From IMG/VR virus record IMGVR_UViG_3300042517_000150, positions 1 through 36,935 of that record: a DNA stretch of 36,935 nucleotides; one strand, given 5' to 3'. Origin of the DNA: a virus. The translations under genes were made by a program, and so were the position numbers. Positions 17,304 through 30,847 of the stretch are shown one piece after another. The notes below the pieces were generated by a model. It worked only from the letters and a program-made list of their open reading frames with translations. It did not search any database and was not told where the DNA came from. Positions within the stretch are counted from its first letter, which is position 1; every line of letters begins with the position of its first letter.

Positions 17304-17813
17304 ATGAAAAATCTAAACGTACAGTGGAAGCCCATAGCCGGGTATGAAGGCCGGTATGAGGTATCAACCGAAGGCCATGTTTGGTCTAGGACGACGCACG
17401 ATTACCTTAAGCCAAACAGAATGACGCACGGGTATTTGTGCGTGCATTTGTATAAAGGCGGTAAACGCACGCGCAAAGTTTGCACAATTCATCAATTGGT
17501 GGCCAAGGCATTTTTGCGTAACCCAAAAGGTTATACCGAAGTCAACCATAAAAATTTTATCCGAACAGACAACCGCGTTGAAAACTTAGAGTGGGTTAGC
17601 CGCAAAGAAAACGTACAGCACGCGTTAGCTGCGGGGCGAAGAGTAAAGCCAGAGAAAAAAGTAAAAGGCATATCAATAGCCACAGGCTTAGTCTATTCAT
17701 TCAATAGTTTGATAGAAGCTGAGATAGCCATGCGCGGCAAACAAACAGGCGGCATAAGCCACGCATTAGCCAAAAATCGCCCCGCCTACGGTTGCGTATG
17801 GTGGCTGGCGTGA
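17304..17813 (+). CDS. Free-standing HNH homing-type endonuclease (NUMOD4-HNH)
   Basis: The protein has 169 residues. The N-terminus (WKPIAGYEGRYEVSTEGHVW) is a NUMOD4 DNA-binding motif. The HNH_3-type core follows: IHQLVAKAFLRNPKGYTEVN, then H-K-N-F-I-R-T-D-N-R-V-E-N-L-E-W, with the usual D-G after the second His replaced by N-F. A C-terminal stretch (ATGLVYSFNSLIEAEIAMRG) looks like a NUMOD1-like helix-turn-helix. Such genes are mobile and cut near conserved phage genes. It sits directly before the polymerase, overlapping its GTG start, and is visibly more A/T-rich than its neighbours, which suggests recent gain. Confidence 0.85.
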   Translation: MKNLNVQWKPIAGYEGRYEVSTEGHVWSRTTHDYLKPNRMTHGYLCVHLYKGGKRTRKVCTIHQLVAKAFLRNPKGYTEVNHKNFIRTDNRVENLEWVSRKENVQHALAAGRRVKPEKKVKGISIATGLVYSFNSLIEAEIAMRGKQTGGISHALAKNRPAYGCVWWLA

Positions 17814-19829: not shown

Positions 19830-22148
19830 TTGGAATTTCTTGATTATTACACAAAACTCGCGCCTGAAGGCGAGACGGCGCTGATTGTGCGCCAAAAGCC
19901 ACAACTGAAAGACGGTGAGCTGCAGTTCCATGCCGATGGTGCGATCAAATGCACATGGCCTGCTGCGCTACCCGACGCGCGCAAGATCAAGCCCGATCAG
20001 GCATGGTACGGCAACACGGCGTCGTTTATCGTCGAGCGGTTCGTCGATGGTAAGCCGGGCGCGTCTGCCGCGAATTGCGAGTACGTCCTAGTCATGGTGT
20101 TAGACGACGTAGGCGACCCGATCAAGGCGCCGAAGACGCCGCAGCTGCCGCCGACATGGATCATCGAGACGTCCGCTGGATCGTTCCAGTGGGGCTATGC
20201 GTTTAGCCTAGACGATCAGCCAACGAAGGCCGAGTACGCTGCAGCCATCAAAGCGATCGCTGACGCAGGCTACACCGACCCCGGCGCCTGCAATGCCGTG
20301 CGCAACTTCCGTCTGCCGGGGTCGATCAATCTAAAGCCCGGGCGCGACCGGTTCGCTGCACAGCTGGTCGAGTTTCATCCCGAGCGCGAGTACACCCTCG
20401 AGGCTATTTGCGACGCGCTTGGCGTGACACCTGCGCCTGCCGAGTCGCTCGGCGTGCGCCCGATCCGCTTGTCGGATGATGGGGCCGATGACGTGATGGC
20501 GTGGCTCTCGGGGCAGGGGGTGTTGCTGTCGCTACCGAATCCTGCAGGGTGGGCAGGCGTCATCTGCCCGAACAGTGCCGAGCATACCGATGGCAACCCG
20601 GAAGGGCGCTACAGCCCTGCTACGCGCTCGTACTGCTGCCTGCACTCGCACTGCATCGACTTAGACTCGAACGTGTTCCTCGATTGGGTGGCGGCCAATG
20701 GCGGCCCCAAGCACGCGCCTGGACTGCGTGACGAGCTGCTGGCGCAGACGATGAGCCATACCCTGTCGCAGTTGACCCCGACCGAAGCATTTCCCGATAC
20801 CGCGGCTGAGATAATCGCCGATGTTGAGAAAAAACAGCGCGACCGAGTCGAGAAGGCCGACTGGTATACCCGCTACGCCTATATCGAGTCCGAAGACGCT
20901 TATTTCGACCTGCACGACCGCCGCGAGATCGCGCGCGGTACCTTCAATGCGCTCTATCGGCATGTGACCTGTTTCTCGATTCATCCGAGTAAGACCAAGC
21001 GCCGCATTGAGGCGTCCGTCTGTTTCGATGAGAACCGCCAGAAGCTGGGCGCCTTGACGTTGGCCGGTATCACCTACGCGGCAGGCGAGAGCGTCCAAGT
21101 GGCGCGTGAGGGGCAGGTGTACGGTAATCGCTGGATTGATCACCGGCCGGTGGCAACCACCGGTAACCCGCGCGTCTGGCTCGAGCATGTCGAGCGGATG
21201 ATTCCGGACGTGTCCGAGCGCGAGCATGTGCTAAACGTGATGGCCTACAAGCTGCAGAACCCGAACAAAAAGATTAATCACGCGGTGCTGCATATCGGTA
21301 ACCCAGGCTCGGGTAAGGATACCCTCTGGCAACCGCTGCTATGGGGCATTGGTGGCGAGTCGCTCGCGAACGTGTCGATTGTGCGCAACGAAGAGATTAT
21401 GTCGCAGTGGGGTTATGCGCTCGAGTCCGAGGTGATGGTCTTCGAAGAGCTGCGCCAAGCGGAAGCAAAAGATAGACGCGCGCTCGAGAACCATCTAAAG
21501 CCCATTATTGCAGCGCCGCCCGAGTTCCTGCAGGTGAACCGCAAGGGTCTGCACCCGTACCAAGCGCTGAACCGCATTTTCGTTTTAGCGTTCTCGAATG
21601 AGCGCGTGCCGCTTAGCCTGCCATCGGATGATCGGCGATGGTTTGTGACCTACTCAGACGCGCCGAGAATGGCCGAGCGTGACGCGCAGGCGATATGGGA
21701 CTGGTATCAGGCGGGCGGGCTTGCCACGGCCGCAGGATGGCTCTATCAGCGTGACGTGTCACGATTCAACCCAGGCGCTGCGCCGCCGTTGACCGAAGCG
21801 AAAATGATTATGGTCGAGCAAGGGCGCTCTACCGCTGAATCGTACCTAGTCGATATGATGCGCGCGCGCTTGGGTGAGTTCTCGACAGGGGTGGTGGCGA
21901 GCCCGTTCTACGCGCTTTGTGAGCGTATTGTGCATGGCGCGCCGTCTGGCGTGAAGATACCGCAAGCGGCGCTCTTACATGCGCTTAAAGAGGCGGGCTG
22001 GGTCGACATGGGGCGCTTAAAGTCGCGCGAGTATGACGCGAAAAAGCACGTATTCTGCGCGCCTGAGCTCGCCGACACGCCGAAGTCAGAGCTCAGACGC
22101 ATGGTCGAACAGGTACCGGTTCCGGCCGCCGTTCGGCTTGTCAAGTAA
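19830..22148 (+). CDS. Primase-helicase (RepB-like primase, DUF5906 D5-type ATPase)
   Basis: The protein has 772 residues with a TTG start supported by TGGAGGGG just upstream; no in-frame ATG lies nearby. The N-terminal 200 residues resemble RepB-type primases (WGYAFSLDDQPTKAEY, then AVRNFRLPGSINLKPG). A zinc-binding segment follows at about 245-275 (C-P-N-S-A-E-H ... YCCLHSHC). The C-terminal half has Walker A GNPGSGKDTLW (about 489-499) and downstream VMVFEELRQAEAKDRRALEN and SDDRRWFVTY, as in DUF5906 helicases. It should prime and unwind DNA for the polymerase encoded just upstream. It is the last gene of the plus-strand replication operon. Confidence 0.88.
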   Translation: MEFLDYYTKLAPEGETALIVRQKPQLKDGELQFHADGAIKCTWPAALPDARKIKPDQAWYGNTASFIVERFVDGKPGASAANCEYVLVMVLDDVGDPIKAPKTPQLPPTWIIETSAGSFQWGYAFSLDDQPTKAEYAAAIKAIADAGYTDPGACNAVRNFRLPGSINLKPGRDRFAAQLVEFHPEREYTLEAICDALGVTPAPAESLGVRPIRLSDDGADDVMAWLSGQGVLLSLPNPAGWAGVICPNSAEHTDGNPEGRYSPATRSYCCLHSHCIDLDSNVFLDWVAANGGPKHAPGLRDELLAQTMSHTLSQLTPTEAFPDTAAEIIADVEKKQRDRVEKADWYTRYAYIESEDAYFDLHDRREIARGTFNALYRHVTCFSIHPSKTKRRIEASVCFDENRQKLGALTLAGITYAAGESVQVAREGQVYGNRWIDHRPVATTGNPRVWLEHVERMIPDVSEREHVLNVMAYKLQNPNKKINHAVLHIGNPGSGKDTLWQPLLWGIGGESLANVSIVRNEEIMSQWGYALESEVMVFEELRQAEAKDRRALENHLKPIIAAPPEFLQVNRKGLHPYQALNRIFVLAFSNERVPLSLPSDDRRWFVTYSDAPRMAERDAQAIWDWYQAGGLATAAGWLYQRDVSRFNPGAAPPLTEAKMIMVEQGRSTAESYLVDMMRARLGEFSTGVVASPFYALCERIVHGAPSGVKIPQAALLHALKEAGWVDMGRLKSREYDAKKHVFCAPELADTPKSELRRMVEQVPVPAAVRLVK

Positions 22149-24053: not shown

Positions 24054-24140
24054 TTAAAATGACATTAGAACGAAAAGAAAAGCCCACAGGTACAGAAAAG
24101 CGATAAGACCTAATAACATTTCGAAAATTGTTTGTTTCAT
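24054..24140 (-). CDS. 28-residue transmembrane micropeptide (short gene)
   Basis: The ATG at 24140 overlaps the stop of the preceding gene as ATGA, with AAAGGGGC about eight bases upstream, and the frame ends with TAA at 24054-24056. The peptide starts MKQTIFE and continues into 21 almost wholly hydrophobic residues including YLWAF, a single membrane helix with a short charged N-terminus. Good translational signals make it a likely real gene. Function unknown. Confidence 0.6.
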   Translation of the reverse strand: MKQTIFEMLLGLIAFLYLWAFLFVLMSF

Positions 24141-24331
24141 TTGCGTGCCCCTTTCAATTCGCGATATAACGCTTGCGCTTCTGAGTCTAAATTGTCGACG
24201 TATGCATCGAAGCGGCCAAGTAGCTCGGCGCCGTCGACGTCATCGGCGAGGACATTGAATAGTTCCCATAAATCTGCGCCGGCTTTACTTACCTTGCTTG
24301 CTGCATAAATTCGGTCGGCTAAGTGTGTCAT
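24137..24331 (-). CDS. Small acidic early protein, first gene of the second minus operon
   Basis: The protein has 64 residues from the ATG at 24331, which has AAAGGGG upstream; a TTG at 24349 would add six residues but lacks a site. It is helical and acidic (GADLWELFNVLADDVDGAEL and YVDNLDSEAQALYRELKGA). It is the first gene read leftward from the control region and could be a small regulatory or host-interaction protein; no family recognised. Confidence 0.6.
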   Translation of the reverse strand: MTHLADRIYAASKVSKAGADLWELFNVLADDVDGAELLGRFDAYVDNLDSEAQALYRELKGARK

Positions 24332-24393
24332 TTGCGCCCCTTTGCTCAAAAATTAGTCAATTATTTTGCAGCACAATCATTTACAACGCCTAC

Positions 24394-24422
24394 AAAATAT
24401 CACGAATTCAGAAAATGTACAA
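24394..24422 (-). promoter_or_regulatory. Candidate promoter of the second minus-strand operon
   Basis: On the minus strand TTGTAC (24417-24422) and TATTTT (24394-24399) are separated by 17 bases. Transcription would begin near 24387, giving a leader of about 55 bases to the ATG at 24331. The match to sigma70 consensus is fair, not strong. Confidence 0.4.
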
Positions 24423-24452
24423 GAATGTTTTGCACTAATTTTCGCTGCTATT

Positions 24453-24787
24453 TGTGGACTACGTGGGTCAAAGTGTGGACTATGAAAATCGGCGCGATTG
24501 TCCACGCCACATTCGAGGGACAGTGCGGCTTTTGGCTATTTGTGGACAATGTGGACAATAAAATCTATCAAACCTTAGGAAGTTAAAATAGTTATCATAC
24601 TGCTAATGGATTGTACGGTCACGTGTGCGCACACGCGCACGCCACCAATTTTTTTTGCCTCTGTAGATTGTCCACATTGTCCACATAGCTTTTTGGCAAC
24701 ATTTTGTCCGGCAAAAAGTTATCCACAGATTCGATTCTTTTTTGTTAACACTTTTACGTCCGCGCGGCCACCGGTTTGTGTGGACAA
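24453..24787. other. Candidate replication origin: cluster of DnaA boxes
   Basis: Exact TTGTCCACA boxes lie at 24668-24676 and 24677-24685 (plus) and at 24541-24549, 24550-24558 and 24779-24787 (minus), and the classic TTATCCACA box lies at 24719-24727. One-mismatch or two-mismatch copies are at 24453-24461, 24474-24482 and 24498-24506. Two doublets form a perfect 19-bp inverted repeat, 24541-24559 against 24667-24685. Between them are an A/T-rich stretch (24556-24606) and a 14-bp palindrome, CGTGTGCGCACACG (24622-24635). No credible gene is present. TTATCCACA and TTGTCCACA are known high-affinity boxes for bacterial DnaA; origin function here is inferred. Confidence 0.65.
24541..24685. repeat. 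Perfect 19-bp inverted repeat, arms 107 bp apart
   Basis: TGTGGACAATGTGGACAAT at 24541-24559 is the exact reverse complement of 24667-24685. Each arm contains two DnaA-type nonamers in direct orientation, so the four boxes point toward the centre in two pairs. Confidence 0.9.
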
Positions 24788-24815
24788 TTTGCATGGTCCA
24801 CATGTGCAAACATCG

Positions 24816-24935
24816 GTTAGTTAGTGCTTACTAACCTGGGCAAGTTAGTTAGTGCTTACTAACCTGGCAAAAGTTAGTGAGTGCTTACTAACTTATCCGG
24901 CTGACAACAAAAAGAGTGAGTGCTTACTAACCTGG
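24816..24935. repeat. Four spaced copies of a 16-bp palindrome (operator or iteron)
   Basis: The core AGTGCTTACTAAC begins at 24823, 24851, 24880 and 24919 (steps of 28, 29 and 39 bases). The first two copies are perfect 6-4-6 palindromes, GTTAGT-GCTT-ACTAAC; the last two have GTGAGT as the left arm. Copies 1, 2 and 4 are followed by CTGG. They lie just upstream of the G-tract and TerS gene. Spacing near whole helical turns for the first three suggests binding of a dimeric regulator or initiator on one face of DNA. Confidence 0.85.
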
Positions 24936-25026: not shown

Positions 25027-25479
25027 ATGGGCATACATTCGTTACCGCTGACGGTTCGCAAACTTGAGGCCACGGAGTCGCGCCTACAGGCCATCTACGA
25101 CGCAGCTAAGCTCGGACTGAAGGGCGACACACTGGCGTTAGCTGCAGGCATGTTGCCGCAGGAGTACCGGCACCTCTGCGAGATGGATCCGGTGGCGACG
25201 ATGGCTGAGCAGAAGGGGCGCGCTGACGGCGAGTTGGAGGCGTCTGCGCTGCTGCACGACGCCGCCCGTAATGGTGACGCCAAGGCGGCGTTAGCGATCC
25301 TGCAGCACGCCCACGGTTGGACGGCGCGTCAGGAGATCAGCGTCGACGTCACGAACAAGATCAGTATCACCCAGGCGCTGCAACAGGCGCAGTCCCGCGT
25401 CATCGACGGGCTGATCACGGAACAGAAACCGGAGTATCTGGAACATGCCACAGAACGCTCTCGCGCCCACGCCGGTTAA
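25027..25479 (+). CDS. Terminase small subunit (probable)
   Basis: The protein has 150 residues and is encoded two genes before the large terminase. The N-terminal part has a helix-turn-helix-like stretch (IYDAAKLGLKGDTLALAAGM), followed by QEYRHLCEMDP, a helical GRADGELEASALLHDAARNG with ALAILQHAHGW, and a C-terminal oligomerisation-like helix. This order fits small terminases that bind the packaging site. No good ribosome binding site lies immediately before the ATG. The 3' end overlaps the next gene by 35 bases. Confidence 0.75.
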   Translation: MGIHSLPLTVRKLEATESRLQAIYDAAKLGLKGDTLALAAGMLPQEYRHLCEMDPVATMAEQKGRADGELEASALLHDAARNGDAKAALAILQHAHGWTARQEISVDVTNKISITQALQQAQSRVIDGLITEQKPEYLEHATERSRAHAG

Positions 25480-30488: not shown

Positions 30489-30847
30489 ACTGCGCCAATT
30501 TTGTAGGCATTCTGTTTTTAGGCCGGGATGTCGCCCATTCGGTGCATCTGAACACCCGCAGCTACGCCAAACACGTCGCTTTGAACACGTTTTACGACGA
30601 GATTGTCGACCTAGCGGACAAGTTTGCCGAAGCCTACCAAGGCCGTCACGGTCTGATTGGCGCTATTTCGCTGCAGTCGACCAAGAAGCCTGGCAACATC
30701 GTTGAGTTCTTGCAAGATCAGCTCGAAGAAATTGAGTCGATGCGCTACAAGGTGGTCGATAAGTCGGACACTCCGCTGCAGAACATCATCGATGAGATCG
30801 TTGGGCTGTACCTGTCAACCCTATACAAATTGAAGTTTCTTGCTTGA
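30485..30847 (+). CDS. Small helical protein (DUF5856-like)
   Basis: The protein has 120 residues, coupled to the portal stop. Features include HSVHLNTRSYAKHVALNTFY, DEIVDLADKFAEAYQGRHGL and a C-terminal IIDEIVGLYLSTLYKLKFLA helix. Conserved H/E/D positions and four-helix layout recall ferritin-like or Dps-like small proteins; I recognise it as a phage family (DUF5856 as far as I recall). A metal-binding role is possible but not shown. Confidence 0.7.
   Translation: MNCANFVGILFLGRDVAHSVHLNTRSYAKHVALNTFYDEIVDLADKFAEAYQGRHGLIGAISLQSTKKPGNIVEFLQDQLEEIESMRYKVVDKSDTPLQNIIDEIVGLYLSTLYKLKFLA

Follow-up and report, generated by a model that had tools for sequence, protein, structure and literature searches.

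A cluster of DnaA-box-like 9-mers located about 2.3-2.7 kb downstream of a phage primase-helicase gene is most likely an iteron origin and not a counterpart of a bacterial oriC; it would include a single conserved DnaA box and be recognized by a primase-helicase with its specificity in the wing of the C-terminal domain. We consider the array most likely to be a phage origin recognized by the phage's own primase-helicase because the repeat and a few residues of that protein change together in about 100 relatives. The window, meaning the whole stretch of DNA analyzed, is a virus record of 36,935 bases. Phage genes surround the array, including those for a family A polymerase, a DUF5906 primase-helicase, an SNF2-type helicase, and P22-like portal and coat proteins. 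As the initial annotation stated, the array sits between divergent genes: small leftward ORFs, among them a 70-aa ORF at 24137-24349 (orf 24137), lie to its left, and to its right a rightward operon, with an ORF at 25027-25479, runs into the large terminase gene. The array stretch is likely non-coding, though mechanically called ORFs cross it (24323-24586, 24603-24809 and 24606-24824).

Exact matches to TTRTCCACA number six in the whole window and all fall within 24541-24787; five are TTGTCCACA and one is TTATCCACA. Shuffled versions of the window contained a mean of 0.38 matches (sd 0.58, maximum 3) and none of 100 shuffles reached six, so that both the count and the clustering far above chance described in the initial annotation stand. 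Besides TTATCCACA, four extra sites differ from TTGTCCACA by one mismatch. Three of these form the left cluster: TAGTCCACA at 24453-24461 and again at 24474-24482, both on the minus strand, and TTGTCCACG at 24498-24506 on the plus strand. Relatives carry other 9-mers at the position of the first. The middle doublet (24541-24558, minus strand) consists of two exact copies of TTGTCCACA head to tail with a 9-bp period, and the right doublet (24668-24685, plus strand) of two further exact copies inverted relative to the middle ones; together they make the perfect 19-bp inverted repeat reported earlier (24541-24559 and 24667-24685). An AT-rich stretch at 24560-24619 (70% AT) is, by its base composition, a candidate unwinding element. 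To the right of the doublets are TTATCCACA at 24719-24727 (plus strand) and a far-right pair, made up of an exact TTGTCCACA at 24779-24787 (minus strand) and the fourth near match, TGGTCCACA at 24794-24802 (plus strand), which lies just past the end of the cluster as first reported. In all, nine TTGTCCACA-like 9-mers are present, and 10 of the 14 sites in the whole window within one mismatch of TTGTCCACA fall in 24440-24810.

Two other sequence elements were seen nearby. A block resembling GTTATCATNATGCTAATA (24579-24612 in the window) recurs, as judged by eye, between the middle and right doublets of relatives, even where the iterons differ. To the right of the origin a 24-nt palindromic repeat, GTTAGTTAGTGCTTACTAACCTGG, is present four times (24816-24935), possibly as an operator or a packaging site. 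Of 68 matches to its core pattern in relatives, 67 follow immediately downstream of the iterons; 34 of the 45 close typed loci have the pattern, as do 6 of the 55 distant ones.

Relatives were taken from viral_contigs (80 of 308 to 597 per scan). Removal of duplicates reduced 195 loci with the primase C-terminus to 120, of which 115 extend at least 2500 bases downstream. We could assign a repeat type to 100 of the 120; the other 20 were dropped as too short (5) or low-scoring (15), and one pair of typed loci has an identical origin core. The layout of the array is largely kept among these phages, with a left cluster, a middle doublet, the AT-rich stretch, a right doublet or triplet, TTATCCACA and a far-right pair, while the 9-mer that fills it differs and changes largely in concert across the array. 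The commonest type is TTGTCCACA (36 of 100 typed loci); other relatives carry TTGCCCACA, TAGCCAACA, TGACCCACA, TGACTAACA or TGACGTGCA, none of which is a DnaA box, and there are others besides. The outer bases of the repeat are nearly constant and the inner bases variable; the typing scan held T1, C8 and A9 fixed, and an unfixed scan of a smaller set returned the same motifs. Copy numbers for the TGACTAACA type are inflated, because its core, ACTAAC, is found also in adjacent palindromes. Some arrays, such as those of L005 and L085, have mixed motifs, which we read, without proof, as degenerate recognition or as arrays in transition. Of 80 loci fetched by their large terminase (TerL), many of which do not extend over the entire origin, 70 contain no more than one exact TTRTCCACA, frequently a lone TTATCCACA located upstream of the terminase. 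Because the repeats switch among relatives, we rejected a DnaA-box cluster as the main function of the array.

The single TTATCCACA behaves differently. In the clade whose primases are at least 72.5% identical to that of the window, the site at 24719 is constant in 40 of 45 typed loci: an exact TTATCCACA is present in the origin region of 31 of the 36 loci with repeats other than the GTCCAC type and of all 9 GTCCAC-type loci. It is thus kept alike with either kind of repeat, and is independent of iteron type within this clade. More distant loci have an exact TTATCCACA in none of 24 with other types and in 7 of 31 of the GTCCAC type; these seven may be iteron variants. Over the 1.33 Mb of typed loci, 50 of 52 exact copies fall inside the origin region. 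By these sequence patterns, TTATCCACA appears to be the only element of the array that behaves like a DnaA box. Iteron plasmids use a DnaA box as a helper in opening, and our analysis suggests that host DnaA likely acts as a helper through TTATCCACA in the close clade.

These observations bear directly on the proposal of the initial annotation that the cluster is a bacterial-style origin, at which DnaA boxes recruit host DnaA to open the phage DNA. Its appeal lies in the six exact 9-mers, in the retention of TTATCCACA and in the fact that the commonest repeat type is itself a DnaA-like sequence. However, close relatives hold 9-mers that are not DnaA boxes at the same positions while TTATCCACA stays, other 9-mers occupying most of the typed loci, and the repeats track a phage protein, as described below. 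Conservation of the boxes in relatives, named at the outset as a test, is therefore found for the single TTATCCACA and fails for the doublets, whose sequence switches. Cumulative GC skew, for which a minimum near the cluster had been predicted, does not turn near 24.6 kb; the detrended curve reaches its lowest point at 822 and its highest at 30530. GC skew is a weak test for origins in phages, since the coding strand dominates it. That an origin lies here is well supported, by indirect evidence; dependence on host DnaA is unsupported, because five of the six exact 9-mers, the TTGTCCACA copies, belong to the switching class that covaries with the phage primase-helicase. We regard a DnaA-driven origin as improbable.

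Since the repeats switch, the factor that changes with them should be phage-encoded. The candidate is a primase-helicase of 772 amino acids, encoded on the plus strand at 19830-22148, which we propose as the iteron-binding initiator on the grounds of its DUF5906 and PHROG DNA primase matches, its NrS-1-like helicase region and the covariation set out below. Residues 464-665 match NrS-1 chains in the PDB by sequence (6k9c, 6k9e and 6lrb; E about 1e-10). The full-length structural model is of intermediate quality (mean pLDDT 65.1, pTM 0.39), and in a fold search its helicase region matched NrS-1 first, together with PriRep1 (7pds), SaPI5 (7ola) and D5-type chains. DUF5906, the PHROG primase match, 6k9c and these fold matches place the helicase region in the D5/NrS-1 type. 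The C-terminal domain (residues 668-743, 21831-22058, plus strand) was delimited on an AlphaFold2 model of residues 640-772, in which block means are 87-97 over model residues 31-120. Helices at 668-678, 693-701 and 712-721 are followed by a hairpin (725-730 and 739-743) with residues 731-738 at its tip; many positions of the helix ahead of the hairpin are invariant or nearly so. No Pfam family matched this domain, and on its own it gave weak matches to solved folds (E above 0.1 in one search, best Z 6.2 in another), so that the term winged helix stands on the order of the elements. On the model, the domain is a predicted winged helix with the putative specificity segment at the tip of its wing.

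That segment comprises residues 729-741 (22014-22052, plus strand), with the wing tip at 731-738 and the key residues K731 and D736, and was defined by covariation and the model. In alignments a short C-terminal stretch (LKSREYDA in the window protein) varies along with repeat type, even when the window protein is set against those of L085 (98% identical) and L090, overall identities being 96-98% (types assigned by eye). When the repeat core was predicted from the nearest neighbor, residues 729-741 were correct for 75.6 of 100 loci and the rest of the protein for 49.9. With neighbors at least 85% identical left out the values were 59.3 and 25.8, and with those at least 80% identical left out, 43.1 and 2.9. 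Among 760 sliding windows along the protein, those touching about 719-749 stand out; for 13-residue windows with neighbors at least 90% identical left out, the top score was 0.73, against at most 0.42 for windows that start outside the segment. Within clusters, repeat and segment were concordant in 701 of 852 pairs, and none of 2000 permutations was as high (mean 545, maximum 643). Parsimony on a 97-tip FastTree tree placed changes of repeat type on 37 branches and of residue 731 on 25, with both on 14; ranked by such co-change among 397 columns, residue 731 came first, T750, which is outside the wing, second, and residue 736 third. Covariation with these controls marks the protein and its repeats as a putative initiator-iteron pair. 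No earlier report of covariation between wing and iterons was found in the open-access literature, as judged by titles and the openings of abstracts.

A first comparison of neighboring genes used a separate set of 73-80 loci, which served nothing else; how well each gene predicts the repeat type was scored afterwards. Ten other genes within the fetched flanks scored 0.23-0.59 against 0.56-0.79 for the segment in the same loci; orf 22264 (12 loci, too few) and the 70-aa orf 24137 were left out of the scoring. The portal gene came nearest (0.59 versus 0.69, 40 loci), and the two genes between primase and origin, orf 22671 (0.26 versus 0.79, 43 loci) and a DUF7227 gene (0.23 versus 0.56, 22 loci), were among the worst predictors, which makes linkage alone an unlikely cause. 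Two neighboring genes carry the provisional labels 'DUF2815-like' and 'VRR'; the family scans assigned neither a family. A position between divergent genes would also suit operators of the flanking operons, bound by the C-terminal domain of the primase-helicase or by another regulator, with no origin present. The covarying protein is nonetheless a primase-helicase rather than a regulator, and all ten other genes scored within the fetched flanks predict the repeat type less well, so that we give this explanation very little credence. Much the same holds for exchange of the primase 3' end and the origin as one recombining block, in which wing and repeats would travel together without touching. 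Phage genomes are mosaic, and wing and origin are only about 2.3 kb apart. Yet the genes in between, and also the parts of the primase beside the segment, predict worse than the segment, and the same residues pair with the same bases in distant clades; block exchange too is very unlikely.

Residue-base associations were counted over 68 distinct combinations. At base 6 of the repeat, K731 occurs with C in 36 of 36 and R731 in 4 of 4 (40 of 40 for K or R), N731 with T in 5 of 5, and M731 with A in 2 of 2. A731 is found with A (7), T (4), C (4) and G (1), and G731 with C (3) and T (1). At base 5, D736 accompanies C in all 33 cases, and each of the 25 cases with T at base 4 has D or E at residue 736. 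It would make chemical sense for lysine or arginine to read the guanine paired with C6, and for aspartate to read cytosine. Some MAG contigs outside the typing set (genome_contigs) were also inspected: of the seven examined out of 12 loci there, three (L325, L322 and L323) agree at base 6 with the rule for residue 731, judged after the fact. L325 also fits the full type, the 9-mer of L323 is not among the typed types, and the array of L322 is weak. No array was seen in L326, and L324, L327 and L328 end too soon for an array to be judged.

The code is imperfect. Identical segments occur with several repeat types: RIKSRDHDTKKHV (3 and 2 loci), RINTREHATKKHI (2 and 2), RLKSREFDTRKHI (3 and 1), RLASREHSTKKHI (4 and 1) and LLKSRAHTTKKHV, which has three types. 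In 21 pairs of proteins that are at least 95% identical and share the segment, the repeat types differ, and exceptions to the rule linking wing and repeat include L055, L152 and L268. We see about an even chance that a simple code operates, in which residue 731 reads base pair 6 of each iteron (K or R reading C, N reading T, M reading A, and A reading mostly A or T) and residue 736 reads base pair 5 (D reading C); that the phages have repeatedly changed address by altering the wing together with the entire array, the selective force probably being co-infecting relatives, satellites or nucleases aimed at the origin; and that the DnaA-box look of TTGTCCACA is convergence or mimicry. Read in this way, the 14 shared branches, which come from one tree, would each be such a change of address.

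From the comparison we infer binding, origin activity, opening and loading, and a role for DnaA. The primase-helicase would bind the 9-bp repeats through its C-terminal winged helix, assemble on the tandem and inverted doublets, open the AT-rich stretch between them, load itself and prime. Wing residues 731-738 would set specificity for the variable inner bases, wing and repeats would switch together in relatives, and host DnaA at the single TTATCCACA would probably help opening, as in iteron plasmids. We hold it to be highly probable that the array is an iteron origin, that the protein binding it is a self-loading primase-helicase like SaPI Rep, Cch2 and P4 alpha, with a wing specificity switched many times, and that the array contains one auxiliary DnaA box. 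Counting against such an iteron origin are its distance of about 2.3 kb from the initiator gene rather than a place directly beside it, the lack of a skew turn, the imperfect code and the rank of T750. Least probable of all is a decoy that sequesters host DnaA and halts host replication, with no origin: several DnaA-like 9-mers do lie in one place, but the same array is kept in relatives whose repeats are not DnaA-like, and a decoy needs no match to the wing of a phage initiator. As for plasmid-like maintenance, raised in the initial annotation, the window proteins scanned, which cover part of the ORFs, matched no plasmid-maintenance family.

The closest parallels to the proposed iteron origin are known replication systems of mobile elements. 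According to PMC7581432, the self-loading staphylococcal helicases SaPI Rep (in SaPI5 a primase-helicase) and SCCmec Cch2 use a C-terminal domain to bind short iterons, which lie downstream of their genes. They resemble the protein described here in having a D5-type helicase, fused to a primase in SaPI5, and were recovered by the fold search (7ola, 7pds); they differ in that their origin is directly downstream of the gene, whereas here it is about 2.3 kb off. A further difference is the conserved DnaA box in one clade here, along with natural switching of wing and iterons over about 100 relatives. The alpha protein of phage P4 has a Toprim-type primase and is described as binding origin repeats through a C-terminal winged helix, according to PMC4234260. 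At 777 amino acids (NC_001609) it is a primase-helicase of nearly the same length, and P4 ori and crr are annotated with 8-bp type 1 repeats, mostly TGTTCACC, some of them 9 to 11 bp apart. No sequence relation to P4 alpha was detected by hhalign of A2 and A1 with shallow profiles (E values of 0.19 and 0.039, at probabilities of about 0.3% and 1.3%); the P4 alpha domain is not among the fold matches listed, which carries no weight against a relation. In the satellite PLE of Vibrio cholerae the DNA-binding domain of RepA covaries with an iteron origin and only cognate pairs replicate, and a change of origin escapes the phage nuclease Odn, according to PMC8263062. That escape offers a reason for origin switching. 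The PLE case is one of RepA_N domain exchange between two groups with iterons of about 30 bp, as opposed to a few altered residues in a wing, and RepA, unlike the protein here, is no primase-helicase. O proteins of Stx phages and their iterons are treated in PMC7466680. The NrS-1 primase-polymerases are the closest solved relatives of the helicase region, and gave no match over the C-terminal domain in the sequence search. With a bacterial oriC the array shares TTATCCACA, clustered 9-mers and an AT-rich stretch; it differs in that the other 9-mers vary in relatives and track a phage protein.

Among named phages, the best TerL match is DSL-LC05 (71.6% identical), placed in the proposed family Luchaoviridae in PMC10611076. 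Its annotation gives it a primase/polymerase of a type of its own; among the 40 of 283 matches listed, the single record that matches this primase over its full length is another one; and the 4.4 kb inspected contain neither a strong T......CA array nor TTATCCACA. Rhodoferax phage P26218 has, by its annotation, other replication genes. The primase of MW202483 is 50.6% identical and its wing differs; repeats resembling TTGTTTACA and TTACATTCA are present, and this phage is too distant to score. A gene annotated 'dnaa protein helix-turn-helix' lies near its primase gene (L321, 9424-9720), possibly a phage-borne DnaA-like DNA-binding protein. L325 and L322, both with this primase-helicase, were binned in one Rhodoferax MAG and have different iteron types, a hint at the host group and at iteron types that co-occur.

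Shifts in initiator specificity are difficult to investigate, since they require the protein to change in step with every one of its sites. The approximately 100 natural initiator-origin pairs assembled here, some with initiators 96-98% identical, are a ready set for asking how residues are matched to bases and what leads phages to switch origins. They also call for care in annotation: the iterons of a phage initiator can look like a statistically striking DnaA-box cluster, and the two can be told apart only through relatives.

Two further genes of the window were noted. A NUMOD4/HNH endonuclease gene at 17304-17813, between a 214-aa gene and the polymerase gene, looks recently inserted, because a close copy was found only in L083 among 24 relatives compared. 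At 898-1782, beside tail-like genes, the window encodes a phage protein with a match to a SET domain.
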